Positions 1 to 50,322 of a stretch of 64,000 bases of DNA are shown here, piece after piece. Each line of letters opens with the position of its first letter. Positions within the stretch are counted from its first letter, which is position 1. Source of the stretch: Bacteroidaceae bacterium (lineage in GTDB: Bacteria; Bacteroidota; Bacteroidia; Bacteroidales; Bacteroidaceae); contig JAFUWG010000054.1 in the NCBI GenBank assembly GCA_017483605.1, positions 62,001 through 126,000 of the forward strand. Reading direction: 5' to 3'. A model generated the notes under the pieces. That model saw nothing but the letters and a program-made list of their open reading frames with translations, searched no databases and was not told where the DNA came from. The position numbers and the translations under genes were made by a program.

Positions 1-29
1 TATAGTTTACATTATTTACCCAAATAGTA

Positions 30-1394: not shown

Positions 1395-1422
1395 AAAACT
1401 CTATCTGAATATAAAATAGAAG

Positions 1423-2364: not shown

Positions 2365-2441
2365 TGTGATTGGACAAATGATACATGTTGCGTTTTTCGG
2401 GAGTGTGTCAACATAAAGAAAGTATAGTAAATTGATAAGTT

Positions 2442-3503: not shown

Positions 3504-3692
3504 CTTTTTGTGGAGATTGTATCTATTCAATAGAAAGTCTGATTTCACATTATCTCTGATTTGTTGTGTTTCCGTATGAAATCTGATATGGAAACCTTGA
3601 AAAAGAGGGCAAGATAATTTATACCAATAGTGAGTCAACAAAGACTTGTAAGGTGGCAATGAGATGTGAATATTAATGGAATTTTATAGATT

Positions 3693-6264: not shown

Positions 6265-6267
6265 TTT

Positions 6268-7380: not shown

Positions 7381-7406
7381 ATCTTCATGGGGTGTAATTT
7401 ATGTGT

Positions 7407-7434
7407 CAAAAAGGTGTGATAAATCACATTTTTG
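7407..7434 (+). terminator. Possible terminator hairpin after the GT4 gene
   Basis: A hairpin with outer arms CAAAAA and TTTTTG and inner arms TGTGA and TCACA separated by a TAAA loop. A two-base GG bulge interrupts the left arm. It lies 27 bases after the GT4 stop and ends in a short T run. The bulge makes this a weak terminator call; it might instead be an operator-like dyad before the next gene. Confidence 0.35.
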
Positions 7435-7489
7435 ATATGAAAACGGTGCAAATTTACACATTTTCTTCCTAATCACCAAAAGAATAGGC

Positions 7490-8242: not shown

Positions 8243-8354
8243 TGGCCGCATTAAACTATCGCTCAGAGTTCCAATGGTTTGCGTGCATCTGAGTACTGCT
8301 TCCTTCTCCGAGTTTCTCGTCAAGAATCATCAAGAGTTTCTCTAAATAATATCG

Positions 8355-8362
8355 TATTTTTG
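8355..8362 (+). promoter_or_regulatory. Possible -7 box upstream of the NTP_transf_5 gene
   Basis: TATTTTTG matches the Bacteroidetes -7 consensus TAnnTTTG, 85 bases before the ATG at 8448. No clear TTTG lies at the expected -33 distance. The 205-base gap from 8243 holds this box, and CAAAGGTA at 8410-8417 is a -7 match on the opposite strand. I see no gene in the gap. Confidence 0.35.
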
Positions 8363-8447
8363 TAATAAGTTTTGGCTTTTTCATTTGTGCTCAATTGTAT
8401 TTGACGAGGCAAAGGTACAAAAAGTTGAAAACTTATTGTTGTTTTAA

Positions 8448-9548: not shown

Positions 9549-9564
9549 AATATTCAATTTGACT

Positions 9565-9608
9565 AAAAATAGCCTTTTGTATTTATGCGATACAAAAGGC
9601 TATTTTTG
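9565..9608 (+). terminator. Intrinsic terminator, 18-bp perfect stem
   Basis: The arms at 9565-9582 and 9590-9607 are perfect inverted repeats flanking a seven-base loop, with an A run on the left and a T run on the right. It sits 16 bases after the NTP_transf_5 stop and would work in both directions. Confidence 0.9.
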
Positions 9609-9724
9609 TTTATAATTGCCACCAAAATAGTCTCTATTATCATTTTATTGAGCCCAAGAAAGACGTTTTATCAGAAATTTGAAAGAAAGATCGCGGAATT
9701 TTCTAAAAAACACATTATTTTCCG

Positions 9725-9732
9725 TAAATTTG
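9725..9732 (+). promoter_or_regulatory. -7 box for the 39-residue peptide gene
   Basis: TAAATTTG matches TAnnTTTG and lies 45 bases before the ATG at 9778. The -33 region is only T-rich (TTTT at 9699-9702). Its presence between a terminator and a short reading frame supports that frame being expressed. Confidence 0.5.
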
Positions 9733-9777
9733 CAACCAATTTGCCAAATGAAACAACAATATTGATAACCATAAACA

Positions 9778-9897
9778 ATGGAAGAGAAAAAAACATATAT
9801 AACACCACTCATCGAAATCTTTGAAATGCCTTCATACCCCATCATTTGCCTCTCTTATACAAACCAAGAAGAAGCAGATGATTCTGACGTATTATGA
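9778..9897 (+). CDS. Small 39-residue protein, MEEKKTYITPLIEIFEM type
   Basis: This short frame encodes 39 residues beginning MEEKKTYITPLIEIFEMPS and ending EEADDSDVL. Bacteroidales genomes carry many small proteins of the form M-K-K-x-Y-x-x-P-x-x-E-V with an acidic tail, usually of unknown role, and this one fits. It has its own -7 box and follows a terminator. Its last six bases overlap the end of uvrB, which is transcribed toward it. There is no cysteine lipobox. Function unknown; being real is likely but not certain at this length. Confidence 0.55.
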   Translation: MEEKKTYITPLIEIFEMPSYPIICLSYTNQEEADDSDVL

Positions 9898-11916
9898 CAG
9901 CATTTCTTCCAACCTAATCACTTCTTTTCTGTATTCCTCCGCCTGGAGGAATTCGAGTTTTTTGGCGGCTTCCTTCATGAGTTTTCGGTTGCGGTCGATG
10001 GCACGTTGAATCTCTTCGGGTGTCATGGCATTGTAGATAGTATCTTCCTCGTTTTCAGCAGCAATAGAGGCATTTTCTTCAATGTATGCTACACCTTGAT
10101 AGTCAACAGGTTTATGCTGGTTGATAGCAATCTGAGCCTTCTGAATCTGAGTCGGCGTGATGCCATGTTCTTCGTTGTATGCCATTTGTTTTTTGCGGCG
10201 GCGATTTGTTTCGTCGATGGTGCGTTGCATGGTTTCCGTAATGGTCTCGGCATACATGATGGCAAGTCCGTGAACATTGCGTGCTGCACGTCCGATGATT
10301 TGGACGAGAGAGCGATGGTCGCGCAGAAATCCCTGATAGTCGGCATCAAGAATGGCGACGAGAGATACTTCGGGGAGGTCAAGACCTTCACGCAACAGGT
10401 TAATGCCGATGAGCACATCATAAACCCCTGCACGGAAGTCGTTGATGATGTCCACACGGTCGAAGGTATCCACGTCGGAGTGAATGTAATTGGCCTTGAT
10501 TCCCACGCCATTGAAGAAGTCCGCCACTTCTTCCGCCTGACGTTTGGTCGATGTGATGACCAAGGTACGCTCCCCTACTTCGATGCGACGATGGATTTCT
10601 TCCATCAGGTCATCCATGAAATTGAGTTTCGGACGCACCTCGATAGGAGGGTCGAGCAAGCCTGTAGGACGAATCAGTTGCTCCACGATGACGCCTTCTG
10701 CACGTTCCAGTTCATATTCGGCAGGAGTGGCAGACACAAAAATCGTCTGTGGCGTCAACTCCTCAAACTCCTCAAGCCTCAGCGGACGATTGTCCAATGC
10801 AGCAGGAAGACGAAACGCATAATCGACCAGATTCTCCTTACGCCGACGGTCACCACCCCACATCGCTTTCACCTGTGGAATCGACTGGTGACTTTCGTCC
10901 ACAATCAACAAATAGTCATCCGGAAAGAAATCCAGCAGGCAATAAGGGCGTTCACCTGCCGCACGGCCATCAAAATAACGCGAATAATTCTCGATGCCCG
11001 AACAATGCCCCGTCTCACGAATCCATTCCAAGTCGTTCGTCACCCGCAACTCTATCTGTTTTGCCTTCTCCACGTCCCCCTTTTCCAGATAGAACTCGAT
11101 GCGTTCGTGCAAGTCATCCTCTATCATGTGGATGGCACGCTGCGTCTGCTCCTTGCTGGTCATAAAGAGATTGGCAGGATAAATCTTGTACTCATCGTAT
11201 GACGTGATAGGATACAACGTGTTCACGTCCAGTTCCTGAATCTCATCGATGGTATCATCATAATAGCCAATCCTCAGAATCTTCTCGTCGTAAGCCAAAT
11301 AGATGTCCACCGTCTCGCCTTTCACCCGAAACTGTCCACGCTCCAATTCGTCCGCATTCGCCATGTCATTGTTCACGTAGAGCATATCCACCAGTTTGCG
11401 GCGGAGCGTCTCTTGCGGCAAATCCTGGTCTCTCCGTATCGTCAGAATGTTCTCCGCATAACTCGTCGGAGCACCCATGCCATAAATGCAGGAAACCGAA
11501 GAAACAATGATGACATCCTTACGTCCCGACAGCAGCGATGAAGTGGCAGCCAGACGACTACGGTCAAGGTCGGCGTTGATGGCAAGGTCCTTCTCTATAT
11601 AAGTACCCGTAGATGGAATATAAGCCTCCGGCTGGTAATAATCATAATAACTCACATAATACTCCACCGCATTGTGGGGGAAGAAAGCCTTCATCTCCGT
11701 GTACAACTGATGAGCCAGCGTCTTGTTGTGGCTGAAAATCAAGGTTGGCTTGCCCACATTCTGAATGACATTCGCCATCGTAAACGTCTTGCCCGACCCC
11801 GTCACACCCAACAGCACCTGAGCAGGCACCCCGTCAAGCACCCCCTGGGTCAACTGTTCTATCGCCTGAGGCTGGTCACCTGTTGGCTGATACTTCGATG
11901 TTAACTGAAATTCCAT
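9892..11916 (-). CDS. uvrB: Excinuclease ABC subunit B
   Basis: UvrB is the damage-verifying helicase of nucleotide excision repair; it receives DNA from UvrA and recruits UvrC. The 674 residues cover the whole family length. The Walker A is GVTGSGKTFTMANV near residue 38, the beta-hairpin region is YYVSYYDYYQPEAYIPSTG near residue 90, the Walker B is VDESHQ, and helicase motif VI is QIIGRAARN. A UvrC-binding helix pair (KKLEFLQAEEYRKEVIRLEE) closes the protein. It is a monocistronic gene divergent from bamD, with a -7 box 25 bases before the ATG. The 3' end overlaps the small peptide gene by six bases. Confidence 0.98.
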   Translation of the reverse strand: MEFQLTSKYQPTGDQPQAIEQLTQGVLDGVPAQVLLGVTGSGKTFTMANVIQNVGKPTLIFSHNKTLAHQLYTEMKAFFPHNAVEYYVSYYDYYQPEAYIPSTGTYIEKDLAINADLDRSRLAATSSLLSGRKDVIIVSSVSCIYGMGAPTSYAENILTIRRDQDLPQETLRRKLVDMLYVNNDMANADELERGQFRVKGETVDIYLAYDEKILRIGYYDDTIDEIQELDVNTLYPITSYDEYKIYPANLFMTSKEQTQRAIHMIEDDLHERIEFYLEKGDVEKAKQIELRVTNDLEWIRETGHCSGIENYSRYFDGRAAGERPYCLLDFFPDDYLLIVDESHQSIPQVKAMWGGDRRRKENLVDYAFRLPAALDNRPLRLEEFEELTPQTIFVSATPAEYELERAEGVIVEQLIRPTGLLDPPIEVRPKLNFMDDLMEEIHRRIEVGERTLVITSTKRQAEEVADFFNGVGIKANYIHSDVDTFDRVDIINDFRAGVYDVLIGINLLREGLDLPEVSLVAILDADYQGFLRDHRSLVQIIGRAARNVHGLAIMYAETITETMQRTIDETNRRRKKQMAYNEEHGITPTQIQKAQIAINQHKPVDYQGVAYIEENASIAAENEEDTIYNAMTPEEIQRAIDRNRKLMKEAAKKLEFLQAEEYRKEVIRLEEMLS

Positions 11917-37998: not shown

Positions 37999-38000
37999 CG

Positions 38001-38397
38001 TGAAGATGGAGGGGATTGAACCCTCGTCCAAACAAGGAAGCCATACGCTTTCTACATGCTTATTCTTGCCTTTGGTTTTCGTGATGCAGCAAGACCAAGA
38101 CCACCAACTGCACCCTTATCCTCTAAAGTTTCATCAACAGGGCGAGGCACCTATTGACTATTCCCGATTTTATAGCACCGCTGATCAGAACGCCTCAGGA
38201 CAGATGGCTTTCTGCGCGATGTCTCGTTCCCCTGCCTGGCAAGGGAATTAGGCCATATCTACTATGCTTCGATTAGGCAGCGAGAGCGTAACGAGTTTCG
38301 CCAATTAATTGTTCGATGTCTGATATTAAAGAGAGGGGCATCAACTCTCTGCATGCTTACGTACCACCTCATCTTGCTGTCAAATCCAGTCATCCCC
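38001..38397 (-). ncRNA. ssrA: Transfer-messenger RNA
   Basis: tmRNA rescues stalled ribosomes and tags the product. The 5' end GGGGATG pairs with CATCTTC at the 3' end (two G-T pairs), followed by discriminator A; CCA is not encoded. The 5' D-like region reads GACTGGATTTGACAGC, and the 3' T-arm GAGGG-TTCAATC-CCCTC is perfect. The tag frame is at 38276-38302 with stop TAA at 38273-38275 and encodes GETRYALAA, close to Bacteroidales tags. Length is about 397 bases. No -7 box lies just upstream, so it may share the tRNA-Cys promoter. Confidence 0.95.
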
Positions 38398-38525
38398 GAC
38401 TTTCTTTGCCGCCTTGAAGCCCCTTCAGAAAGTGTCCGAAGGCTTCTCTGTGCTCTCGATGCACAGGCGAGAAGTGATAAGTATGGCTCAACCAGCCACT
38501 GCCAATTGAGCCTCTTCTTGTTTAG

Positions 38526-38597
38526 AGGTGCGTACCCGATTCGAACGGGTGTACACGGTTTTGCAGACCGTTGACTAAGCCACTCATCCAACGCACC
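38526..38597 (-). tRNA. tRNA-Cys (GCA)
   Basis: On the minus strand, acceptor GGTGCGT pairs with ACGCACC, anticodon stem ACGGT/ACCGT encloses loop CTGCAAA with anticodon GCA, and the T-arm has GTTCGAATC. No CCA is encoded. It lies 128 bases upstream of ssrA and downstream of a perfect promoter. The 128-base spacer has a GGCTCAA/TTGAGCC hairpin and otherwise nothing I recognise. Confidence 0.96.
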
Positions 38598-38734: not shown

Positions 38735-40018
38735 ATGGGAAAAGCAGTAGGCAAAGTCAAAGATTTCATCCGTCAGAACAACCTTTTGGAAGACAAGGCA
38801 CGGGTGGTGGTCGGCTTGAGCGGCGGACCAGATTCGGTGTGCCTCGCCCATATCCTGCACCAACTGGGATATGAGGTAGTGGCGACACACTGCAACTTCC
38901 ACCTGCGTGGAACAGAAAGCATGCGGGACGAGCAATTTGTGGAAGAGTTGTGTAGGCAACAGGGGTGGACACTCCACAAGACAGATTTCAGCACGGAGCA
39001 GTATGCCCAAGAACACAAGGTGAGCATTGAGATGGCGGCACGTGAACAGCGGTACGATTGGTTCCAGAATATGATGAGGGAAACGAATGCTGAAGCCATT
39101 GCCGTAGGGCATCACAAGGATGACAACGCCGAAACAATGCTGCTCAATCTGGTCAGAGGCACGGGCATCAAAGGCCTGTGTGGGATGCAACCCAAAAATG
39201 GAGATGTGGTGCGTCCCCTGCTGTGTCTCACCCGACAAGAGATTCTCGATTATCTGCAAGAAAAAGGGAACGATTATGTGACCGACCACACCAATTTGGA
39301 AGACAACTATGCCCGCAATAAGTTAAGACTCAACGTCATGCCACTCTTGGAGAGCATCAATCAGGGTGCTTTATCTAACATCACCTCATCCATCGAGAAT
39401 CTGAATGAAGTGCAGAAAGTGTATCGGCAAGCGATGGATGCCGCTATCAATGCGTGCAGCCACCATACCGAGAACGGCGAACTGCACATAATAATCTGTA
39501 AACTTCTGCAGCATCCCTCCCCTATCTCCGTCTTGCACGAACTGCTTTCCCCCTTCGGCTTCAACAAACAACAACTGAAAGAGATGCTTTCGTCCCTTCA
39601 AGAAAGTGGCAAACTTTTCTCTGCCAACGGACGCCGACTGCTGATTGACAGAGAGGACATCATCGTTGAAAGCCTCAACTACCCTGCCGTGCAGATTCAT
39701 CAAGAAGTCCTTCCCGTTGAGCAAGTCCACATCCAGAAAGGCCCTCGCTTCGCCTACCTCGATGCCAGCAAACTGCATGGAGAACTGACCCTCCGCACAC
39801 CCCAAACGGGCGACACTTTTGCGCCCTTTGGCATGAAAGGCAAACGCCGCCTCCTCAGCGACTTCCTCACCGACCTCAAACTCAACCTCTTCGAGAAAGA
39901 ACGTCAACCTCTCCTCATGGATGGCGAAGAGATTGCATGGGTGGTCGGCCGCCGCAGTTCCGACCTCTATCGCATAGATGAACACACAAAAAAAGTGGTC
40001 GTGCTAAAATTAGCATGA
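38735..40018 (+). CDS. tilS: tRNA(Ile)-lysidine synthetase
   Basis: TilS modifies C34 of tRNA-Ile(CAU) to lysidine, an essential step for AUA decoding. The 427 residues show the PP-loop SGGPDSVCLAHIL at about 29-41, CNFHLRG, the HHKDDNAETMLLNLVRGTG block, and a C-terminal TilS domain (TLRTPQTGDTFAPFGMKGKR). Length is normal. It starts almost leaderless from its own promoter. Its last bases form part of a terminator for the opposing defence operon. Confidence 0.96.
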   Translation: MGKAVGKVKDFIRQNNLLEDKARVVVGLSGGPDSVCLAHILHQLGYEVVATHCNFHLRGTESMRDEQFVEELCRQQGWTLHKTDFSTEQYAQEHKVSIEMAAREQRYDWFQNMMRETNAEAIAVGHHKDDNAETMLLNLVRGTGIKGLCGMQPKNGDVVRPLLCLTRQEILDYLQEKGNDYVTDHTNLEDNYARNKLRLNVMPLLESINQGALSNITSSIENLNEVQKVYRQAMDAAINACSHHTENGELHIIICKLLQHPSPISVLHELLSPFGFNKQQLKEMLSSLQESGKLFSANGRRLLIDREDIIVESLNYPAVQIHQEVLPVEQVHIQKGPRFAYLDASKLHGELTLRTPQTGDTFAPFGMKGKRRLLSDFLTDLKLNLFEKERQPLLMDGEEIAWVVGRRSSDLYRIDEHTKKVVVLKLA

Positions 40019-40022
40019 CCAC
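39985..40022 (-). terminator. Terminator of the defence operon
   Basis: Arms 39995-40007 and 40010-40022 pair over 13 bp with one G-T pair; on the minus strand the stem is followed by CTTTTTTTTG. It lies 38 bases beyond the res stop and overlaps the 3' end of tilS. Confidence 0.75.
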
Positions 40023-40060
40023 CACCCCAATTAAAGGCAATTCCTTTTACATGAAATCAC

Positions 40061-42754
40061 TTATGTAAGAGACAAAGCCAAAACATATTGAAGTTTAAGC
40101 GTTCGCCCCACTACACTATGTGGAATCAAGGCATATTGCCATTCCTTTCCGCCATTCTTCTTCGTATAATCGGAAACAATGGAACAATACTCCATAGCCG
40201 CCTTCTTTTTCTCCTGCACCTCGTCATTGTTCATATCTTTCTCCGCCTTCGTTTCAATCATGTATATTTTGTCGGCCGTATCTGCAATAAAATCAGGCTC
40301 GTATTGATGTGCACCATTCGACCAATAGATTTTGAATTGATTGGGGACAGGACGTAGCCAACGTAATACGTCCGCATCGTTTTCGAGCAAACAAGCAAAG
40401 TCCAACTCGGTTGTACTGTCAAACTTGTAGGTCTGATAATAAGATTTCAGAAAGCCTGTATAGATATATTTCTTCACAAAAGACTTCTGATTAGCACCAA
40501 AAGGAAGACGATAATCCCGATACCCAAATGCCGTTTCTTCTGTCAAATGCTGAGGCAACAGTTCCACAAAAGGCAAGACCCGCGAACTGGCATATCCTTG
40601 TTTCTCCAAGGTGAAATGCTCTTTCATTTGATGATAGATGCGATTGGCGATTGCCATCTTAAATTGATGCACTTTTTGGGAAATGTCTTTGCCTTCTTCC
40701 GTTTGCTGTTGAATCGCCTCTACTGCCTGATTCGCCAAGTGAAAAAGCAACTCCGCATTTTCGTCGTAATCAATTTCCTCAAAGTTCATCAATTGAGCGA
40801 CAATCTCTTTCACGGGTTCATCAAAGTAACCACTGGATATTGCCTTCAGCACTTCCACCTCATTATCTTTCAGCCCCATGCGGATAATCTCATTGCTCAA
40901 TTCTGGAAATGAAAAACCTTCTGACGTGTCTAAGTCAAATGGATGGAAAATCGCCGTGGCTTGTGGCTGTTCAATCACCACACGAGGAATTTCTATGACA
41001 TTGTCAAGGTAGTCTTTCACCACCATATTGATGACAGGCGTCATCTCCTCTATCTGTTTGGCAGACTCTTCTTCAGCAAAAAGAGGATTGGCAATGGCTG
41101 CCTTTTCTTTGATGATGGTTTCTGTCAGTTTTTTCAGTTTCGCGATATTCTCTGGCTTGGCAAGGTCTTCTTGCTTTTTCACTTGTGTATTCATCAGCGG
41201 AATGGCCTCCCATATTGCCATCTTCGCATCATAGATAGCCTTGGCTTTTACCGCATCATGCTGTTGCTCCGCTTTTGCCTTTTCTTGCTCAATCTTCTCT
41301 TCAAACGAGGTCTTTCCTTTGACAATCTGCCCTGCAACAGGTTTCAGTTCCTCGTCATCCAACTCCACGTAACTCAACTTGTTCAGCAGGGAATTTGGGT
41401 CTTGTGCTCTGCTGATGACTTCGTCAAAATTTTCATGGGCAATCACCGTCAACTTGTCCACCTCAGCATTGCCCGTTCTTTTCCCTCCGTAGGGCAAACG
41501 CAACCCACGTCCAATCGTTTGCTCCACCAGAGTAATGGCATCGGCAGCACGAAGTGGCACAATCGTGTAAAGGTTTGTCACATCCCAACCCTCTTTCAGC
41601 ATATTCACATGCACCACAACTTCAATCTTGTTGTTGGGGTCTTCAAGTGAAACAAACTGCTGGTCTATCTCATCATTCTTCTTCGTTGAACTGTCTATTT
41701 GCAACACCTTCCCTTGGTACTTCCCTTCATAGATTTTGTTTTCGATTAAATCAACCGTCTCTTTAGCGTGTTGAATGTTACGGCAAACCACCAAGATAAA
41801 AGGTTTCACTAATAGCACATTGTTTTCTTTCGAATACAACTCCAGATGCAGTTTGGTGTGTTCATGCACACTAATTGCATCCTCCAGTTTCAACACGTCC
41901 AACTCTTCTGGCGTTTGGTCTTTTTTCTCAAAGTTACGGCGTTTCGCGATGGTTGGATTCTTCACATACTTCCCTTCCGCCAATGCTTCTGCCAAATTGT
42001 ACTCATAGACAATATTTTTGAACGCTTTCCCCTTCTCGTCGTATGGCGTTGCCGTCATCTCCAATCCCAACACAGGACGTAACTCATTGATTGCCTTTCG
42101 AGACGCATCTGCATGATAACGGTGGGCCTCGTCCATCAGTATCACCAAATCATCAAGACTTGCAAGGTAATTGAAATACGATTGCCCCAGATATTCCGAG
42201 AGTCGCTTCATTTTTGGAGCACCCTTCTTGCTGTCCTTGCTATCGGTATTGAACTTGGATATATTAAAGACATTGATTTGAATTTCTGTAGCAGAAAAAA
42301 GATTTCTTGCCTGTTCATAATTATCACCTGTAATCACAACAGGCTGGTTGTGCACAAATTCAGAAATTCCCTTGAACACATACTTCTCGTATGATGGGTC
42401 ACCAAAGTCCCGAATCAACTTCTCATACAACGTCAGGTTGGGGGCAAGAATGAAGAAGTGACGGATATTCTTCTTCAAAAACAGATAAGCAATACAAGCA
42501 CCCATCAGCCTTGTCTTCCCGATGCCTGTGGCAATTGAGAAAGCAAACGATGGAAAATCCCTTTCAAAATCCCTGCACAACGGACACACCTCTTGTGCTT
42601 TTGCCAACTCTTCTTTGACAAAAGCCTCTTCCCCTCCCTCCGCAGGTTTCTTCAAAGAGAGATTATCCGTCAACCTCACCACCACATCCAATGCCTTGCA
42701 AAGTGGCTCTCGCAAAGACTGGCGCTGCTTGATATTGTTTGCTGTTGTATTCAT
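40061..42754 (-). CDS. res: Type III restriction subunit (helicase-nuclease)
   Basis: An 897-residue superfamily 2 ATPase with a C-terminal nuclease. The Walker A variant is SIATGIGKTRLM (about 74-85), the DEAH box is ILMDEAHRYH (208-211), then EMTATPYD. Motif VI is EQTIGRGLRLPYGGKRTG. Near the end, YEPDFIAD and MIETKAEKD (PD at 820-821, ETK at 834-836) give the PD-(D/E)XK site of type III Res. It would translocate or switch on DNA and cut between two sites unmethylated by Mod. Its ATG overlaps the previous stop (ATGA). It is the last gene of the six-gene operon. Confidence 0.92.
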   Translation of the reverse strand: MNTTANNIKQRQSLREPLCKALDVVVRLTDNLSLKKPAEGGEEAFVKEELAKAQEVCPLCRDFERDFPSFAFSIATGIGKTRLMGACIAYLFLKKNIRHFFILAPNLTLYEKLIRDFGDPSYEKYVFKGISEFVHNQPVVITGDNYEQARNLFSATEIQINVFNISKFNTDSKDSKKGAPKMKRLSEYLGQSYFNYLASLDDLVILMDEAHRYHADASRKAINELRPVLGLEMTATPYDEKGKAFKNIVYEYNLAEALAEGKYVKNPTIAKRRNFEKKDQTPEELDVLKLEDAISVHEHTKLHLELYSKENNVLLVKPFILVVCRNIQHAKETVDLIENKIYEGKYQGKVLQIDSSTKKNDEIDQQFVSLEDPNNKIEVVVHVNMLKEGWDVTNLYTIVPLRAADAITLVEQTIGRGLRLPYGGKRTGNAEVDKLTVIAHENFDEVISRAQDPNSLLNKLSYVELDDEELKPVAGQIVKGKTSFEEKIEQEKAKAEQQHDAVKAKAIYDAKMAIWEAIPLMNTQVKKQEDLAKPENIAKLKKLTETIIKEKAAIANPLFAEEESAKQIEEMTPVINMVVKDYLDNVIEIPRVVIEQPQATAIFHPFDLDTSEGFSFPELSNEIIRMGLKDNEVEVLKAISSGYFDEPVKEIVAQLMNFEEIDYDENAELLFHLANQAVEAIQQQTEEGKDISQKVHQFKMAIANRIYHQMKEHFTLEKQGYASSRVLPFVELLPQHLTEETAFGYRDYRLPFGANQKSFVKKYIYTGFLKSYYQTYKFDSTTELDFACLLENDADVLRWLRPVPNQFKIYWSNGAHQYEPDFIADTADKIYMIETKAEKDMNNDEVQEKKKAAMEYCSIVSDYTKKNGGKEWQYALIPHSVVGRTLKLQYVLALSLT

Positions 42755-43353
42755 TGCTTATAAAACTCTATGATTTTGTCATCTTTTATAGAGACCTCAT
42801 TTACAGGTACTAAATGTATGCCATGTTCTTTATAAAAGGTCTTATATTCCGTATAATCACTAACAATCATTTCGTTAAAAGCCGTCTTTTTCCTTGGGAA
42901 AGCCACAATGCCATATACATTATTTTTGAGGATGACACCATGTTTACGAAACTCACCAACATTTAATATCAACTTCTCTTTTACATTTTGTTTGTATCTA
43001 GAAATTCGGCTTCCTTTGCAATCTTTTATTTCTATAAAAAGAATCCAACTCTTATCATCATTTATGGTTGGGAACATGCAACATTCACCATGTTTCAAAT
43101 CATCATCTTCTTCATCTTTGAACTGATTGTCTTTAAACACATTATAATCAATGGACAAAACATTTGTGTTTAAAACAATACAACAATCCATATCGGCTGT
43201 ACTATCATTAGGGTCTCTGGGTAAAACGTCACTAATCTCAACGCCTCTTTCGTTACTGGTACGTTTCGTGAAATCCGCCACATATATTTTCTCCGCTTTA
43301 GTCGTCCCAAACGTAGACTCTGGATATGCTTTCAGTATTCTACTCTTCATCAT
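42751..43353 (-). CDS. Unknown protein, possible PD-(D/E)XK nuclease partner of the ATPase
   Basis: A 200-residue AT-rich gene whose family I do not recognise. KSWILFIEIKDCKGSRISRY (101-120) is a hydrophobic strand ending in Glu108-x-Lys110, and STADMDCCIV (51-60) gives candidate upstream aspartates, the order seen in PD-(D/E)XK nucleases. The fold is an inference. It overlaps the ATPase gene by 14 bases (or 11 from the ATG at 43350) and the res gene by four, so its output is tied to both. The tight pairing with an OLD-like ATPase resembles other ATPase-effector defence pairs. A Toprim effector is not supported. Confidence 0.55.
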   Translation of the reverse strand: MMKSRILKAYPESTFGTTKAEKIYVADFTKRTSNERGVEISDVLPRDPNDSTADMDCCIVLNTNVLSIDYNVFKDNQFKDEEDDDLKHGECCMFPTINDDKSWILFIEIKDCKGSRISRYKQNVKEKLILNVGEFRKHGVILKNNVYGIVAFPRKKTAFNEMIVSDYTEYKTFYKEHGIHLVPVNEVSIKDDKIIEFYKQ

Positions 43354-44593
43354 CGTAATAGTTAAGAAGTGAAAGATATTCAGAAGAATTCTCTTTATAT
43401 GCCTGATTCAAATAGTTATCTTCAATGATGCCATCTTCATCTTGAATACACTTCAAAGTCCCATCATGTATCTCGTAAATCGAGACTTTCTTTGGGTCAA
43501 TCCAAGCAGGATAAGAGTCAAAGTCTTTTTGCCTATCTGTAGGAATTCTATTTTTAACAAGCCCTCCCATCATACAGTTATTCAAAGAGAACAGAATGTA
43601 TGGACTATGAGTTGTCAATACTAATTGATGGTTTCTATCAGACGCATTTATTTGTTCCAACATATAATATACTAATTTCTGTTGGGTCTCTGGGAACAAA
43701 TTCAATTCGGGCTCTTCGATAATTACTTTGGAATAATTGTAATCAGAATCGAAGCCTATTGCAATATTTAAATCCCTCTGGATATCATAATATTCTTTTA
43801 CGGTTCGTTTATTATCGGCAACATCTATATTATTAAGTTTATTTTGAAGAATCTCAATCTGTTCTGTATTAAGATTCGCAAGTTTCGCTTTCAAATTAAC
43901 AATCTCAAATGGTGACTTCTGCCTCTCTTTCAAATATATAGTATTAACTATATGATTAAAAACGAGAATTAAAGGAGCAACAGACATCAATCCACTCGAA
44001 GCATGTCTCAGTTTGATAGGGGTTCCATCCTCTAATACAACATTATCACTATCACTTTCTTTATCATAGAAAAAGGACACATCACCAAGTGACCCTAAAG
44101 GTAATGGAAATTTTCTCGTACTATCCCAATCCTGCTTCGCATCAAACCAATCATACAAAAAGGACATCACATTGTCACGGGTTTCATTATATTTGCCAAT
44201 ACCTTTGATAGTCACGAAATTTCTTTCGGCTGGTATATACTCAATTTTCTCATTTCGGAATATGTTCTTGCTACTCACGTTAGTATTAACGACAAGGTCT
44301 TCCACCTTTTTACCAGGAAAGATAATATGACAATTTTCACTCTTATATTCAATGTGTGAATTGTCATTGAAATAACCATCTTCCAGATTATGAAATTCTA
44401 TGAGTTCCTTGTAGAAATCCTTTTGCAACTTTGTCGATAATATCACATTTTTCTCAAACCAAGAACAATAACTAATAATCTTGGCAATGGTACTTTTACC
44501 ACTGCTTTGAGGTCCCATGAATACATTTATCTTATTCAAATCAAGTTCAACTTCTTTGATTGGACCTATATTTTTAATAATAATATGTGCCAT
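43340..44593 (-). CDS. ABC-type AAA ATPase (AAA_15/OLD-like, no Toprim domain)
   Basis: A 417-residue SMC/ABC-like ATPase. Walker A is GPQSSGKST at 27-35, a signature-like helix HASSGLMS at 197-204, Walker B IIEEPE at 291-296, and the switch histidine TTHSP at 327-331. The protein ends soon after the ATPase core with no Toprim nuclease domain, unlike OLD nucleases. It is similar in layout to the ATPase halves of two-gene defence systems such as PARIS and Septu. The gene is markedly AT-rich compared with the helicase upstream. It follows mod by 27 bases and overlaps the putative nuclease gene. Confidence 0.85.
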   Translation of the reverse strand: MAHIIIKNIGPIKEVELDLNKINVFMGPQSSGKSTIAKIISYCSWFEKNVILSTKLQKDFYKELIEFHNLEDGYFNDNSHIEYKSENCHIIFPGKKVEDLVVNTNVSSKNIFRNEKIEYIPAERNFVTIKGIGKYNETRDNVMSFLYDWFDAKQDWDSTRKFPLPLGSLGDVSFFYDKESDSDNVVLEDGTPIKLRHASSGLMSVAPLILVFNHIVNTIYLKERQKSPFEIVNLKAKLANLNTEQIEILQNKLNNIDVADNKRTVKEYYDIQRDLNIAIGFDSDYNYSKVIIEEPELNLFPETQQKLVYYMLEQINASDRNHQLVLTTHSPYILFSLNNCMMGGLVKNRIPTDRQKDFDSYPAWIDPKKVSIYEIHDGTLKCIQDEDGIIEDNYLNQAYKENSSEYLSLLNYYDDEE

Positions 44594-44620
44594 ATTGTTT
44601 ATTTAGGTTTTAGTTTCTAT

Positions 44621-46288
44621 TTAAAATAACGTGCCTTGCACGGGTTTATTGTCTTCGGTTGTGGGTTCGTCGTCGGTGAAGTCGGCATCGGGGTCTTCTT
44701 CGAGGTCGAGTGGGGGCATGTCGATGATGTTGAGGGAGTAGTCGTCCTTGTTGAACTCGCAACGACCGAGGAGCATCTGGGGAATTTTCTTCACGGTGAT
44801 GCGGGTGGCGTGGTTGGTGCATTCCTTTTGGAAAGCGGTGCAGCAGATGAGGAGGCTTTCATCCTCCTGCATGGTTTCGCTGATGGCATCGAGACTTTCC
44901 ACGGTGAGGAACTGGGTGGTGGTGTAGATGTAGTCGTGCTCCGAACTTTGACCTTGTTTCCAGTAGAGGGTGCTGTCTGGCTGATAGGTGTAGCCTTCCT
45001 GTTTCGCCATCGCTGCGGCAAGCATGTCGGCATTATATTCTTTGTTGATGACGAGGTTGCCGAACTTGTCTTCCTTCAGCAGACTTGGAGCCAGTTCGTA
45101 GAACTTAAAGCCGCTGCCGCCTTTCCAGTTCTGCGCCTTGCTGATACCGCCTTGGTCGGTGCCATCAGTCACTTTCATCAGGCGGGGAACACACAATGAG
45201 TATGCTTGGTCTCCAAGTTCAACTCCAATATATTTTCTTCCCATTTTCTGGGCAACAGCGGCAGTTGTACCAGAGCCGAGGAAACTATCAAGAACTATGT
45301 CGCCAGGCGTTGTACATAATTTTAGAATACGTTCTACTAGACGTTCTGGTTTCGGAGTTTCAAAAGGATTATTTTCTTTGGGAAATAATTGTTTAATTTC
45401 CTTTTTGGCTTCTTGGTTATCTCCAACTTCATCCCTAAACCATATTGTTTTGCATGCAACACCCTGTTTAACTTCTGACAGAAACTTCTTCACTGCTGGC
45501 ACATTAGTCCCAGAATCTCCGAACCAGATGCGATTATCTTTTATTTTTTCTTGCATAACAGATTCTGTGTACAACCAACATCTTCCTGCTGGTAGTGAAT
45601 AATCTAATCCATTCGGGGCATGTAAAACATAAAATTGACTTTTTGTACCATGTCCAGCTTGTGCTGTGGAGTCAGAAGCTTTCCAAGGGCCTCTTGGATC
45701 ATTATCTCTGTTTGTATAGCGAGCATTCATTTCTTTTGTACGTGGTAAAAGGAAGGGATGCCATAATTCTTTATTTTTTGCATATACTAAGATAAAGTCA
45801 TGGCTGTCAGATAACCATTTTGCAGCATTTTGTGGTGAATACTTTTTCTCCCATATCGCATTAGCCACAAAATTATTTCTGCCAAAGATTTCGTCACAGA
45901 TAACTTTGCAATATGCTTGTTCATTGTCATCTAATGAAATCCAAAGAGTTCCTTCTTTCTTATCTAACAAGTTATATAAAATTTGTATGCGTTCTCTCAT
46001 CAACGACAGCCAAATAGAATGTTCGATTCCATCATCATAATGCTCAAAGGCACTACCCGTATTATATGGTGGGTCTATATAAATGCACTTTACCCTACCC
46101 GAATACTCCTGTTCCAATGCTTTCAACGCCAAAAGATTGTCACCGTGAATGAGCATATTGCCACTCTCGGTGTCACCATAACTATATTGAGGGTCTTCAA
46201 TGAGAATCCGAGGTTCGATTGCCTCCCGCTTCTCATCCTTCCCAATCCAAGTCAATTCTAACTTTTGTAGTTTATCTTGTGCCATCAT
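44621..46288 (-). CDS. mod: Type III DNA adenine methyltransferase (Mod)
   Basis: A 555-residue beta-class N6-adenine methylase. The catalytic motif DPPYNTGSA is at 72-80 and comes before the AdoMet-binding motif LDSFLGSGTTAA at 333-344, the order of the beta class; the target-recognition region lies between (about 130-320). Mod sets the specificity of the type III system and is needed for Res to cut. The first about 365 codons are AT-rich, and the last 190 codons much richer in GC and in Glu/Asp, so the gene looks mosaic. It begins three bases after the DUF1016 stop. Confidence 0.94.
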   Translation of the reverse strand: MMAQDKLQKLELTWIGKDEKREAIEPRILIEDPQYSYGDTESGNMLIHGDNLLALKALEQEYSGRVKCIYIDPPYNTGSAFEHYDDGIEHSIWLSLMRERIQILYNLLDKKEGTLWISLDDNEQAYCKVICDEIFGRNNFVANAIWEKKYSPQNAAKWLSDSHDFILVYAKNKELWHPFLLPRTKEMNARYTNRDNDPRGPWKASDSTAQAGHGTKSQFYVLHAPNGLDYSLPAGRCWLYTESVMQEKIKDNRIWFGDSGTNVPAVKKFLSEVKQGVACKTIWFRDEVGDNQEAKKEIKQLFPKENNPFETPKPERLVERILKLCTTPGDIVLDSFLGSGTTAAVAQKMGRKYIGVELGDQAYSLCVPRLMKVTDGTDQGGISKAQNWKGGSGFKFYELAPSLLKEDKFGNLVINKEYNADMLAAAMAKQEGYTYQPDSTLYWKQGQSSEHDYIYTTTQFLTVESLDAISETMQEDESLLICCTAFQKECTNHATRITVKKIPQMLLGRCEFNKDDYSLNIIDMPPLDLEEDPDADFTDDEPTTEDNKPVQGTLF

Positions 46289-46291
46289 TCT

Positions 46292-46933
46292 TCAATTTCT
46301 GAGTTCTCGTTCAATATCTTCAATGCTCGGTAATGTGCTTTTGAAATCTTTCGGATATAGTTTGGAAAGTTCATATTCAGAAATACCCAGCGGATTGTTA
46401 TAACCTTCGAGGGCATATTGGGCTATGACATCATCTTTGCTTTTGCAAATTAGTAAGCCAACTGTAGGGCTGTCGCCATCACGCTTCAAAACATGATTGG
46501 CACATGAAACGTATCCACTTAATTGTCCTAAGAAGGCTGGTTCAAGCATCCCATTTTGTTTCACTTCACCCACAACTTGTGGGTGTTCCACTGTACTATT
46601 TCTCTTTTCTTGTACACCCACAAGTTGTGGGTGTCCTGAAATAAAGGGTTTGTAGAGTATATAAAAACGCCTTGTATACTGAAGATTTGTGATGGAAAGT
46701 CCTTGTAAATTTGGAATGGCGGTTTGCAAATCTTCATGAAGATTTTTCCAGAAATTTTCCGTCCATCGTTCATCTGCCTTCATTTCAACAATGTCTCTAC
46801 CCAGTTCCCAATAGAACTGGATTAACTCACCATTCACTCTCACCGCAGCCTTTATCTGGCTTTTCCGAAAACGAAGGCTTAGGTCTTTTATCCAATTGGC
46901 ATACTCGCCATCTATTTTTACTAATTTACTCAT
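46292..46933 (-). CDS. DUF1016 (YhcG-type) protein with internal deletion
   Basis: A 213-residue protein against about 340 for the family. The DUF1016 N-terminal domain is present (ANWIKDLSLRFRKSQIKAAV through LSITNLQYTRRFYILY). The C-terminal end of the PD-(D/E)XK domain is present too (LGQLSGYVSCANHVLK, VGLLICKSKDDVIAQYALEG). The roughly 120 residues normally between them, with the active-site aspartate strand, are replaced by a short segment with two palindrome-encoded repeats (GHPQLVGV and EHPQVVGE). EVK just before the rejoining point may mimic the ExK motif. Catalysis is doubtful. The start at 46933 overlaps the helicase stop as ATGA; another ATG lies at 46945. Confidence 0.8.
   Translation of the reverse strand: MSKLVKIDGEYANWIKDLSLRFRKSQIKAAVRVNGELIQFYWELGRDIVEMKADERWTENFWKNLHEDLQTAIPNLQGLSITNLQYTRRFYILYKPFISGHPQLVGVQEKRNSTVEHPQVVGEVKQNGMLEPAFLGQLSGYVSCANHVLKRDGDSPTVGLLICKSKDDVIAQYALEGYNNPLGISEYELSKLYPKDFKSTLPSIEDIERELRN
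46567..46634 (-). repeat. Two in-frame palindromes inside the DUF1016 gene
   Basis: CACCCACAACTTGTGGGTG at 46567-46585 and the same core extended to 21 bases at 46614-46634 have 9- and 10-bp arms around one central base. They are 47 bp apart and both are read in the same frame as HPQ(L/V)VG. Confidence 0.9.
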
Positions 46934-49824
46934 ACAATCCTCCATCTTATATTAAACAAAGTTTCTTCACTCTCTTTCTTCTGCCGAAGGGCTTGTTCCA
47001 CCTCGTCGAAGAGTCGGTCTTTCTTGGCATCCACCTCGTCTTGGGCTTCGAAGAGACTGCGACGCTTTTCACTACGCCGCTTTTCGAGGTCTTTCACTTG
47101 GCGTTGTGCCTCGATTTTTTCTTCCAGCCGAGTCAGTTTTCGTGCTTCTGCCTTGCGAAGTTTGATTTCTGCGTCGAGGTCGCTGATTTCTCGTTCCAAG
47201 CCAATCTTGATGTCATCTGCCCACAAGTTGAGTTTGTCGATTTCGGTCTCAAAAAACGCTTGGTTCCGCTGGTAGTTCTCCTCCTTAGCCGTTCCTTTCT
47301 GCTGCTGAATGTCTTGCAGAAGCCACTCAGCCATCTCTGCATTCATCTGGGCGTGCCTCCCCTCTTGGGCATTGAGGGAAAAGAGACGTTCCGCCACATC
47401 AGAAGGGAGCATCTGCCCATCGTCCGTGTAGCAAGCCATCAGCAAATGGTCTTCAGGTTCTGATGCTTCGATGGTGTATTTGTCCACTCTGAGCCATCCA
47501 GTTTTCCCGATGTAGTTTTCTAACATGCCCACTTTGACGGGCGTGTTGCTGTAGTCAAAGATGACTTCATGCGATGGCAGGTCAAGGGCTTGATACCCCT
47601 TCAAGATGCTTTGTGCCAACGGATGCCCCACACGATACACCTGTGCATGGTCGGGAATGCGTACATCGCTCTTGCGTTCCCCCTCTTTGGGCACCACCAT
47701 GCAATAGGCAACCCCGTTCTCTCCCACAAACGAGTGGGCTTCTTCATCAAAGGTGGCATGACCCTCCAACGCATACTTTGTCAGTTCCCAAAGCCGCTTC
47801 TCGAAGAGATTGAGGTTGGTGAGACTTGCTGCCAAATGAAGCCTCAGTTTCTCACCAACTGACTCATCGAAGTTCTCCAACAAGGTGGAACGTGCTTTCA
47901 GCATCTTGTCTGAAATCTCCGAACGCAACTCCTCTTGCAACTGGTCGAAAGCCTGTTCGATTTCCTCCGTGGTGCGGCATTCATTATAAATCTGTGTGAT
48001 GCGTTTCTCAAAGTCCACCCCGTTGCCAATGCTTCCCAACACTTCGTCGCTGGCACCAAACACACCGCTGAACAGTTGGAATTTCTCGTTCAGCAACTCA
48101 TAGACACGCACATCGGCAGCGTTACGTTTGTTAAGGAAGTTGATGACCACCACATCATGCTCCTGACCATAACGATGACAGCGACCTATCCGCTGTTCAA
48201 TGCGTTGTGGATTCCACGGCATATCGTAGTTGACCACCAGCGAACAAAACTGCAAGTTGATACCTTCAGCCGCCGCCTCTGTGGCAATCATGATGGTGGC
48301 TTGGTCGCGAAAAAACTCCACAATGGCAGCACGCTTATCGGCAGTAGCCGAACCGGTCACCTTGCTGCTTCCTTTATACTTTTCCAACCATGCTTTGTAG
48401 ATGGCAGTTGACTGCTTGTCGCTGTTTGAGCCGTTGAACAAGACGACTTTCCCCTTGTAGCCGTTTCTCTCAAACAACTCAAAGAGAAAATCCTGTGTGC
48501 GTCTTGACTCGGTGAAGAGTAAGGCTTTCTTGTTAGCCCCCAACTTCTCCAGTTCCTCGAATCCCTTGTTCAGTGCAATGAACAGGTGCTCAGCCTTGCT
48601 GTTCTTGCGAATCTTTGCTGCCAAAGTCTGAAACTCTCGCAGGTCAGCCAACTCTTTTTTGACTCCTTCGATTTCGTAAGGATGCAGTATGTTCTCCTCT
48701 GCCACCATCATTCTCGTCTCTTCTTCCTCTTCGTCATTCAACCAATAGTCGAGGTTGTCATCCAGACCGTCAAAGTCAAGTGTGGTCGTGTCCAACTCCA
48801 CTTTCACGTCTTGATGGCGAAGCATCTCTTCCAATCGTTCGATGAGTCGGGTCAATGTGCCATAGATGGCGTATGTGGACGAAGCCAAGAGCTTACGCAG
48901 AATCATCGTCATCAGTTGTCGCTGACTGTTGGGCAGAGCGTAAAGACGTGGGCGTTGCAGGTAGGCAGAGACTAACTCGTAGAGTTTCTGTTCGTTGTCC
49001 GTAGGATAATACTCCTCACAGATGGCGATACGCTTGGTGTACTTAATGTATTCCAGCACCTGTCGCCGAAGGGTTCGCTTGCACACCGGTTGAAGGCGAT
49101 TCCGCAACAGGCAATAATCATTGTCCGTCAGAATCTTGCCAAACTGACTCTTGAAACTCTTCAGGTCGCCAAAGACAAACTCGTCGATGATGGAGACCAA
49201 TCCATATAGTTCAAGGATGGAGTTCTGCAAAGGAGTAGCGGTCAGCAAAACCTTTTTTCTTTTGGCAAGAGCCTCCTTAATGGTGTTGGCAATTCGGTTG
49301 TTTGGCTTATAGACATTGCGAAGTCGGTGTGCCTCATCAATCACGGCTAAATCCCAAGGCGTCTGGCGGAGATATGCCGCTTTCGCCCTTGCAAACTGAT
49401 AGGAGCAGATAATGATGCCATCCTTTTTGAAGGGGTTAAGGTTGCCCAATTCTATCTCCTGATTGAAACTCTTCGCCTCCAATATGTAAGAAGGTAAAAA
49501 GAATTTCTCCATCAATTCTGCCGACCACTGCTTGCGCAAGTTGGCTGGGCAGATAATCAACAAACGGCGTTTGTGCTCTGCCCAATGTTGCGAGAGAATG
49601 ATACCCGCTTCAATCGTCTTTCCCAACCCCACCTCGTCTGCCAAGATAGCACCATGCGACATGGGAGACTTGAAGGCAAAGAGGGCTGCATCAATCTGGT
49701 GGGGAGTCAAATCGACTTGGGCATCGTGGAGCGACGCCGTCAATTTGTCCAGATTATTGGCAGGGAGCCTCCTTGTCAAGAAATGGGCAAAATACTTTGC
49801 GTGGTATGGGGTTATACAAGCCAT
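46930..49824 (-). CDS. SNF2/HepA-like helicase
   Basis: A 964-residue SF2 ATPase of the Swi2/Snf2-RapA group. Walker A is ILADEVGLGKTIEAG (motif I about 64-71), DEAH in AVIDEAHRLRN (about 163-166), LLTATPLQNS as motif III, and EQRIGRCHRYGQ as motif VI. The last 130 residues form a charged coiled coil (EREISDLDAEIKLRKAEARK). Related helicases occur in DISARM and other defence loci as DNA translocases. I choose the start at 49824 because TAACTTTG at 49858-49851 would start the transcript downstream of the ATG at 49863. It is the first gene of the defence operon. Confidence 0.88.
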   Translation of the reverse strand: MACITPYHAKYFAHFLTRRLPANNLDKLTASLHDAQVDLTPHQIDAALFAFKSPMSHGAILADEVGLGKTIEAGIILSQHWAEHKRRLLIICPANLRKQWSAELMEKFFLPSYILEAKSFNQEIELGNLNPFKKDGIIICSYQFARAKAAYLRQTPWDLAVIDEAHRLRNVYKPNNRIANTIKEALAKRKKVLLTATPLQNSILELYGLVSIIDEFVFGDLKSFKSQFGKILTDNDYCLLRNRLQPVCKRTLRRQVLEYIKYTKRIAICEEYYPTDNEQKLYELVSAYLQRPRLYALPNSQRQLMTMILRKLLASSTYAIYGTLTRLIERLEEMLRHQDVKVELDTTTLDFDGLDDNLDYWLNDEEEEETRMMVAEENILHPYEIEGVKKELADLREFQTLAAKIRKNSKAEHLFIALNKGFEELEKLGANKKALLFTESRRTQDFLFELFERNGYKGKVVLFNGSNSDKQSTAIYKAWLEKYKGSSKVTGSATADKRAAIVEFFRDQATIMIATEAAAEGINLQFCSLVVNYDMPWNPQRIEQRIGRCHRYGQEHDVVVINFLNKRNAADVRVYELLNEKFQLFSGVFGASDEVLGSIGNGVDFEKRITQIYNECRTTEEIEQAFDQLQEELRSEISDKMLKARSTLLENFDESVGEKLRLHLAASLTNLNLFEKRLWELTKYALEGHATFDEEAHSFVGENGVAYCMVVPKEGERKSDVRIPDHAQVYRVGHPLAQSILKGYQALDLPSHEVIFDYSNTPVKVGMLENYIGKTGWLRVDKYTIEASEPEDHLLMACYTDDGQMLPSDVAERLFSLNAQEGRHAQMNAEMAEWLLQDIQQQKGTAKEENYQRNQAFFETEIDKLNLWADDIKIGLEREISDLDAEIKLRKAEARKLTRLEEKIEAQRQVKDLEKRRSEKRRSLFEAQDEVDAKKDRLFDEVEQALRQKKESEETLFNIRWRIV

Positions 49825-49850
49825 TAAACGGTAATGTGGAATTTCGCCTA

Positions 49851-49858
49851 CAAAGTTA
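49851..49858 (-). promoter_or_regulatory. -7 box of the defence operon
   Basis: The minus strand reads TAACTTTG, 26 bases before the ATG at 49824. The -33 element is weak. No other box is evident between here and the res gene. Confidence 0.6.
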
Positions 49859-50052
49859 GTCATTTTATTTCAAATATTCGTCTGCAGGTAGAAATTTGTT
49901 TGTTTTTTGAAGGAAAAAGCATGGATGCTTCGGAGGGGTGTATTCGCTTGTTGGATAAAACTTTATTGTGAGTTCATGATTTGCTGTGACGAATGTCCCA
50001 TTTTATTTATGTGTCGTGGTTTTTGTTTTCTCTTGCCGCAGAAGTGTGAAAT

Positions 50053-50182
50053 ATTTGGCTTGAATACAACTTCCAATTTGGCTTGATTACAAAAAGTGAT
50101 TTGGCTTGAATACAGAATATTGTCATCAAGCCAAATTGATTGTTATATTCAAGCCAAATTAGAATGTGTAATCAGGCTAAAT
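50053..50182. repeat. Six-unit mirrored array, 23-bp period
   Basis: Three direct 16-bp units start at 50053, 50076 and 50099 (ATTTGGCTTGAATACA, one A-to-T change in unit 2). Three inverted units end at 50136, 50159 and 50182 (for example TGTCATCAAGCCAAAT). Each step is exactly 23 bp with seven-base spacers and a six-base centre. It lies in a 498-base gap between the helicase start and the PAP2 gene. Apart from this array, a promoter box and a terminator I see nothing in that gap. Confidence 0.93.
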
Positions 50183-50260
50183 ATCTGAGAGGAATAAGGT
50201 AATAGATGATGAAGGTGAAAGGCAGGAGATAATGGAGGGGAGCGGCAGAAGATGTTTGTG

Positions 50261-50290
50261 CAAAAAGAAAGCCCCTGTTGGAACAGGGGC
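50261..50290 (-). terminator. Terminator of the bat operon
   Basis: GCCCCTGTT and AACAGGGGC (50271-50290) form a nine-bp stem; the minus strand continues TTTCTTTTTG. It lies 32 bases past the PAP2 stop. Confidence 0.85.
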
Positions 50291-50322
50291 AATGGATGGT
50301 TTTGTAGGGATGGGGGGAGGAT

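Follow-up and report, generated by a model that had tools for sequence, protein, structure and literature searches.

The window analysed here, 64,000 bases of Bacteroidaceae bacterium contig JAFUWG010000054.1 (positions 62,001 to 126,000), carries a six-gene operon whose core encodes a SNF2-family helicase-like ATPase (SNF2) and the Mod and Res proteins of a type III restriction-modification (R-M) system. Comparison with related loci, cited below by our own numbers prefixed L (loci) and G (genomes), suggests that such helicase-associated type III R-M loci, with the order SNF2-Mod-Res, probably serve as a platform for interchangeable anti-phage cassettes. Two gaps in the core receive this cargo. 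Slot 1, from SNF2 to Mod, holds a DUF1016 gene in the window, and slot 2, from Mod to Res, holds the genes of an AAA ATPase and of a small partner protein. An earlier note on this DNA had taken all six genes for a composite system in which the DNA-modification mark may license several effectors. Because the anti-phage genes in the two gaps are interchangeable, the six genes are unlikely to form one fixed machine.

A conserved core and its variable slots

Searches of one-per-species genomes returned at least 527 confirmed relatives of SNF2 among at least 591 matched stretches, and the best 80, of at least 50% identity, were kept; by record title they belong to Bacteroidota, Chlorobi, Ignavibacteria, Nitrospirota, Chloroflexi, Proteobacteria, Planctomycetes, Verrucomicrobia, Patescibacteria and others. 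Mod and Res, searched with queries of the three lineages described below, were found downstream in all 56 relatives followed by at least 9 kb of sequence. With the window's own Mod and Res as sole queries both were found in 55 of the 56, in the order SNF2-Mod-Res in 55 of 55, and the 56th locus (L138) carries large MTase_III and REase_III genes with a Ppl-like gene between them. The remaining 24 relatives are mostly cut by contig ends; L084, L092 and L114 lack a downstream Mod despite at least 2.5 kb of sequence, and in L114 Mod lies upstream and Res downstream of SNF2. The order survey, which covered 393 genomes including the source genome, detected SNF2 (E 1e-80) at 16 loci in 15 genomes, 11 of the loci with Mod and Res and four cut by contig ends. 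Close relatives of Res (E 1e-40) occur in 11 order-survey genomes, six of which have SNF2 in the same operon and one (G188) on another contig. The strongest 25 of 67 SNF2 loci in IMG/VR were also examined, 42 weaker ones being left out; Mod and Res are on the same strand as SNF2 in 18, and five are cut short (L174, L176, L177, L186, L190). One of the 18, L189 (5022-12838), has the order Mod-Res-SNF2. As dozens of genomes share the core order, the six-gene neighbourhood is more than chance. The earlier note was right to see more than plain Mod and Res here, SNF2 being a regular third component in the 56 assessable loci and the operon forming one unit between tilS and PAP2.

The content of the slots varies. 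Counting as filled any slot longer than 200 bp, slot 1 is filled in 55 of the 70 loci with Mod and slot 2 in 25 of the 62 with both genes, and a bare three-gene core is found in 11 (L079, L080, L081, L083, L089, L097, L102, L104, L105, L124, L127). Among the 25 of 45 Pfam families listed for the 84 slot-1 proteins are AAA_15 and AAA_21 (12 each), AIPR (7), GmrSD_N, OLD-like TOPRIM, DUF3800 and SLFN_AlbA_2 (3 each) and SIR2_2 (2). The 35 slot-2 proteins match AAA_21 (6) and DUF1016/YhcG (5), with single matches to RhuM, DUF4276, Fic, DUF3800 and others (among 25 of 46 families listed). PADLOC relates the slot proteins to known and candidate defence models, AAA types foremost (among 25 of 351 and 25 of 323 families listed). 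DUF1016 itself fills slot 1 of three loci (the window, L106 and L128) and slot 2 of five (L074, L117, L129, L132 and L150).

The limits of this variation show in the DNA of four close loci, L072, L073, L074 and L183. In all six pairs SNF2 is 83-90% and Res 78-84% identical; the alignment ends at the end of SNF2, restarts at the start of mod, breaks about 330-440 bases into that gene, returns near its 3' part, ends before its end and restarts at the start of res. No slot DNA aligned in either slot of any of the six pairs. Outside the stretch from SNF2 to Res five pairs show no alignment, and the sixth, L073/L183, aligns additionally over about 175 bases in front of SNF2 and in two short segments following Res. 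Across the loci with cargo found, only one of the 23 pairs whose SNF2 proteins are at least 80% identical has a cargo homologue in common, a sign of fast cargo turnover. The central gap in mod falls at the place expected for the target-recognition domain of a type III Mod. Within the window's own mod, blastn against L071 aligns only 45867-46285 and 44715-45297. Recombination within the conserved genes on either side has probably swapped the cassettes.

The core itself is not uniform. Three Mod/Res lineages were found with this SNF2: A (the window), B (L101) and C (L138 and Escherichia coli NCTC86). The window Mod scores just 88.6 bits against the NCTC86 Mod and the window Res 29.3 bits against the NCTC86 Res, and on these scores the NCTC86 pair is of another type III lineage than that of the window. 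When 89 loci, in which one genome is counted twice as L107 and L151, were labelled by best Mod and best Res, 53 were A/A, 15 B/B and 5 C/C, seven had only Mod and nine neither; mixed lineages were found in none of the 73 loci having both genes. A FastTree phylogeny of 112 SNF2 rows (12 unlabelled) implies seven lineage changes, the minimum being two, and none of 200 shuffles gave a number as low. Two E. coli/Salmonella A rows fall inside the C rows and L101 (B) inside the A rows, on starred branches whose stars warrant caution, long branches meeting in this tree. Within the genus, SNF2 of the same family (E 1e-60) was detected in one of 44 other genomes, with lineage C partners. Among 72,556 plasmid records 44 carry a SNF2 relative (E 1e-100), and 27 of the 44 are predicted to be conjugative.

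The operon is regarded as a 10.3-kb acquisition because tilS and PAP2 abut in 6 of 29 congener loci. PAP2 matches were obtained in 40 of 45 genomes of the genus, and the 30 best, the source genome included, were fetched, leaving these 29 loci. In L262, L269, L276, L279, L286 and L288 tilS and PAP2 converge, their 3' ends overlapping or separated by no more than about 30 bases. In L289 and L290 the match to tilS stops at residue 287 and PAP2 is no more than 250 bases away; 1.3 kb separate the two genes in L281, tilS is inverted in L283 and the other 19 loci, some at contig ends, have no tilS within 1.5 kb of PAP2. The neighbourhood therefore varies. The congener G403 shows neither an empty site nor a filled one, its tilS and PAP2 each lying at a contig end next to other genes. 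The window's 10.3 kb consist of the operon, its terminator, which also supplies a new tail to tilS, and a repeat cluster; there is no recombinase among the six genes.

Genes of the operon and flanking signals

Table 1. Coordinates of the operon and associated features in the window
Feature	Coordinates	Strand	Basis
Acquired segment, ~10.3 kb	39995..50318 (approximate)	not assigned	tilS/PAP2 abut in 6 of 29 congener loci
Hairpin and T run (hairpin ~40022-39995)	39987..40022	minus	read from sequence
Core: type III Res, SF2 ATPase and C-terminal endonuclease domain, 897 aa	40061..42754	minus	PADLOC, Pfam
Slot 2 cargo: small partner, 200 aa, putative PD-(D/E)XK-like nuclease	42751..43353	minus	conserved residue pattern
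Slot 2 cargo: AAA ATPase (AAA_15/AAA_21, OLD/AriA-like), PADLOC PDC-M29A	43340..44593	minus	PADLOC, motifs
Core: type III Mod, beta-class-like DNA methyltransferase, 555 aa	44621..46288	minus	PADLOC, Pfam, motifs
Presumed target-recognition region of Mod	45298..45866 (approximate)	minus	no DNA alignment with L071
Slot 1 cargo: DUF1016/YhcG (PDC-S02), internally deleted, 217 aa	46292..46933	minus	PADLOC, Pfam, alignments
Core: SNF2-family helicase-like ATPase, 964 aa	46930..49824	minus	Pfam and NCTC86 homology
TAACTTTG, -7 box (TAnnTTTG)	49851..49858	minus	read from sequence

The identification of Mod and Res as a type III restriction pair is borne out. Mod matches PADLOC MTase_III (3e-187) and Pfam N6_N4_Mtase (169 bits) and contains DPPY and FLGSG motifs, the AdoMet motif included. 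Res combines an SF2 ATPase (Pfam ResIII, 80.9 bits) with a PD-(D/E)XK endonuclease domain (RE_endonuc, 28.1 bits vs a cut-off of 23.4) and matches PADLOC REase_III (8.8e-155). The SNF2 protein is recognized by Pfam SNF2-rel_dom (121.8 bits) and Helicase_C (73.7 bits), and the same Pfam scan found no nuclease domain in it; its profile, compared with solved structures, gives RapA as best match.

The DUF1016 protein belongs to the family named in the earlier note, in a copy deprived of its catalytic part. The PADLOC model PDC-S02 matches it in two stretches, the second at profile positions 260-351 of 355, and Pfam YhcG_C covers it over just 74-157 of 157. Relative to the 362-aa protein of L074 it aligns at its first part (46% identity) and last part (62%), not in the middle: an in-frame deletion of about 145 aa has removed both acidic residues (D and E) of the PD-(D/E)XK site without closing the reading frame. 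Beside the deletion junction the gene contains a 19-bp palindrome twice (46567-46585 and 46615-46633), and no other copy with at most one mismatch was found in this genome or 40 relatives. The deletion may be an assembly error. The source assembly is 3.06 Mb in 56 contigs and 81.5% complete.

The ATPase matches PDC-M29A with 216 bits over profile positions 1-405 of 410, and its Walker A and EEPE motifs are invariant in nine sequences; against solved structures its profile weakly matches an OLD-family nuclease and AriA. PDC-M29 presumably has a second gene. The partner gave no family at E 0.001 in PADLOC, Pfam or NCBIfam and matches no PADLOC model; its relative in L072 gives just a 16.7-bit REase_II match. 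The partner profile found nothing convincing among solved structures (best E 0.018, HisF). Residues D27, E90, E108 and K110 are invariant in nine sequences; in a tenth, more remote sequence D stands in place of E90. The label of putative nuclease given to this fifth gene thus has the conserved E...E-x-K pattern as its sole basis, a pattern compatible with a PD-(D/E)XK nuclease.

In the order survey the pair is present at 8 of 30 places fetched around the best ATPase matches, the partner search profile having been built from sequences of these same places. Two of the eight (the window and G243/L032) are slot 2 of a SNF2-Mod-Res locus. At the other six (L031, L033, L034, L035, L036, L037) neither Mod nor Res of the three lineages was found on the 4.6-17.7 kb fetched, the upstream side of the pair being short or cut in L031, L035 and L036. 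The gene after the pair is not Res in five of these six, and the contig of L037 ends at that point; L037 has no Mod before the pair and a SNF2-like gene (72 bits) nearby on the opposite strand. The pair also occupies slot 2 of L072 and L115, loci selected through SNF2. Since six of the eight places show it without Mod/Res on the fetched DNA, the pair looks like an autonomous module recurring in slot 2. Two loci with the ATPase were seen on viral contigs, with the partner gene detected in one.

The layout described in the earlier note was confirmed by the list of open reading frames (ORFs) of the window: all six lie on the minus strand, with gaps of 3 bases before mod (46289-46291) and 27 bases before the ATPase gene (44594-44620) and overlaps of 14 bases between ATPase and partner (43340-43353) and 4 bases between partner and Res (42751-42754). 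The 4-base overlap of the SNF2 stop with the DUF1016 start holds if DUF1016 is read from 46933, an ATG inside the ORF, which opens at 46945; the L074 relative begins at the equivalent of this internal ATG. For SNF2, the start at 49824 is preferred over the first ATG of the ORF (49863) because relatives begin at the same conserved N-terminal motif.

The single -7 box announced upstream of the first gene is present on the minus strand at 49858-49851 as TAnnTTTG, which we take to be the Bacteroidetes-type consensus. The -33 element is poor, the nearest TTTG lying just 12 bases upstream of the box as counted by eye; a promoter scan used the sigma-70 consensus only and is uninformative for Bacteroidetes. 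The announced hairpin with a T run after the last gene is visible by reading and overlaps the 3' end of the convergent tilS, and a mechanical scan of the window did not list a hairpin at about 40022-39987.

Other features of the surroundings deserve mention. A tmRNA and a tRNA-Cys gene lie at 38000-38597, just before tilS and near the acquired operon, and near the tmRNA region of the congener locus L249 (3733-4307) ORFs of repeated peptide units correspond to tandem repeats. At 50053-50160 a cluster of a 16-base motif with a 23-base spacing has three copies in one direction and two in the opposite one. The genome holds 31 matches of this motif (at most one mismatch) in eight clusters, the reversed control giving none; it is a dispersed palindromic repeat family. 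Positions 1-10000 of the window have a G+C content of 34-40%, vs 47-58% at 10-40 kb, with strong GC skew, and are possibly another foreign region.

Competing explanations

Several points weigh against a platform of fixed core and exchangeable cassettes. The 80 relatives are the best of at least 527 matches and form a biased sample. The order-survey SNF2 of L157 (43% identity) has no Mod or Res, and neither do IMG/VR loci L193 and L194. Four of the 11 order-survey genomes with a close Res, one of them with a broken Res, show no SNF2 match; SNF2 being seen nearly always with Mod-Res and Res also without SNF2, Mod-Res does not require SNF2. DUF1016 also occurs after Res in L075 and L095, and cargo is therefore not confined to the two slots, to which our tally is restricted and in which the crude gene caller missed some genes (for example that of L106). 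Cargo sharing, scored by blastp (E 1e-5, over half of the shorter protein) in pairs of loci with cargo found, is not monotonic with SNF2 identity: 1 of 23 pairs share cargo at 80-100%, exceeded by 16 of 106 at 70-80%, followed by 18 of 163 at 60-70%, 5 of 281 at 55-60%, 26 of 864 at 50-55% and 3 of 48 at 40-50%. Finally, a passage of Murray et al. (2021; PMC8259958) describes the extra helicase of a comparable system as dispensable for methylation and as not found in partially purified Eco86II.

Apart from this weighing, L157 (6086-13904) offers an observation of its own, its SNF2 lying directly downstream of a 1655-aa TmtA-like protein.

Family knowledge allows a mechanism to be proposed for the platform. 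On host DNA, Mod would methylate a short asymmetric site on one of its strands, and Mod-Res would cut DNA with unmodified sites after ATP-driven sliding, type III cleavage requiring two sites and ATP. SNF2, as a RapA-like motor, may act on DNA or on stalled complexes and so aid restriction. The ATPase and its partner could be an independent two-gene effector, expressed from the operon's promoter and covering phages that evade restriction, and the truncated DUF1016 protein may be a remnant or a nuclease-dead adaptor. A bolder version is tentative and rather doubtful: SNF2 would be a general type III partner moved among at least three Mod/Res lineages, and the operon a platform with three exchangeable parts (slot 1, central mod and slot 2), swapping specificity and back-up effectors while motor, methylase scaffold and nuclease stay, SNF2 perhaps coupling the recognition of unmodified DNA to the firing of a slot effector.

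Cargo might alternatively stay silent until a phage inhibitor knocks out Mod-Res or SNF2 and thereby releases it, in the way that PrrC is reported to be released by EcoPrrI inhibition within a type I operon (PMC12707154). The many cargo proteins matching known or candidate defence genes would suit such a guard or back-up role. We judge it unlikely: the pair occurs where no Mod/Res was found and therefore probably works without such a guard.

One integrated six-protein system, in which the Mod mark licenses or restrains SNF2, DUF1016, the ATPase-nuclease pair and Res together, could draw on the overlapping same-strand genes, on their acquisition as a single unit and on the recurrence of the pair in slot 2 of L032, L072 and L115. 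It is very unlikely because the cargo varies. Other loci hold different slot genes, the same six genes were seen in no other locus scanned, 11 of the 80 near relatives have the bare core, the pair stands without Mod/Res on the fetched DNA at 6 of 8 places and the DUF1016 protein lacks its nuclease core. The composite inferred in the earlier note from DUF1016, the pair and the core, with a mark that licenses several effectors, is thus not supported. The earlier note named accessory genes confined to this DNA as one refuting outcome, which did not arise, relatives turning up at many other sites; the co-occurrence count that it proposed nevertheless shows these genes to have no tie to mod/res.

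A chance neighbourhood of independent systems side by side in a defence island, to which fast cargo turnover and the two loci with DUF1016 after Res could be ascribed, is highly improbable. The conserved order largely contradicts it, since all 55 loci in which the Mod and Res queries from the window detected both genes read SNF2-Mod-Res; homology breaks at slot edges and an empty site that lies outside the whole unit also oppose it.

The persistence of SNF2 with three divergent Mod/Res lineages and the availability of bare cores as minimal test objects make the role of the helicase testable. The two slots are places to search for uncharacterised anti-phage genes, and the overall pattern suggests how restriction operons may change specificity and effectors with their frame kept.

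Relation to known systems

Two known systems were considered and rejected. For DISARM class 1, the best defence-model match of SNF2 is DrmD_b with 654 bits, under the 950-bit cut-off; DrmA, DrmB and DrmC are the best match of none of the six proteins, DrmA appearing solely as a lower helicase match of SNF2 (among the PADLOC matches listed, the best 25 each for SNF2, Mod and the ATPase). For Hma, HmaA ranks fifth for SNF2, neither HmaB nor HmaC is among the matches listed and Mod is a type III amino-methyltransferase.

The nearest counterpart is a subgroup of type III systems in which a further gene, for an SF2 helicase-like ATPase, lies 5' of mod. It is exemplified by Eco86II and BspHIV, and m4C methylation is a trait of the Eco86II-like systems. 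Murray et al. (2021; PMC8259958) count such a helicase gene near mod/res in more than 500 genomes and leave its function open; our literature search found no later answer on the function of the type III-adjacent helicase. The E. coli NCTC86 locus, which from strain and gene order we infer to encode Eco86II, comprises SNF2 (963 aa), Mod (1040 aa) and Res (1126 aa). The window resembles this subgroup in the position of its helicase 5' of mod and res, in the end-to-end homology of SNF2 to the NCTC86 helicase beside mod/res (450 of 974 aligned columns identical, 46%) and in a helicase in which no nuclease domain was found. It differs from NCTC86 in having cargo in both slots, where NCTC86 has none, and in drawing Mod and Res from another type III lineage. 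Two enterobacterial loci share the core and carry slot 1 cargo: E. coli TB06051 (L167), arranged HTH-SNF2-Abi-AIPR-Mod-Res, with a Res 41% identical to that of the window, and Salmonella plasmid pJHZ21-111K (L165), arranged HTH-SNF2-IS256 transposase-Abi-hypothetical-Mod-Res. Both differ from the window in their cargo and in a SNF2 that groups beside that of NCTC86 in the tree.

The cargo recalls the embedded phage-defence candidates (PDC, HEC) of the preprint by Payne et al. (2024), as cited in PMC12988326 and PMC12255303, DUF1016 (PDC-S02) and the ATPase (PDC-M29A) being defence genes inside another defence operon. Unlike known PDC genes, the partner has no PADLOC model and DUF1016 is truncated; a further difference is that slot contents are here measured across SNF2-type III loci. 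An effector gene within an R-M operon also recalls PrrC, an anticodon nuclease whose coupling to EcoPrrI is reported (PMC12707154), with the difference that the host of PrrC is type I and that of the window type III. Our literature search met no account of variable cargo in SNF2-type III loci, and the Payne et al. (2024) preprint may contain one.

Helicase-type III loci (Murray et al. 2021) and the embedding of defence genes (Payne et al. 2024) are thus already known. What is added here is their coincidence in a two-slot platform with exchange breakpoints and the association of SNF2 with three Mod/Res lineages, together with a partner of PDC-M29A that had no annotation and a DUF1016 copy that is truncated.

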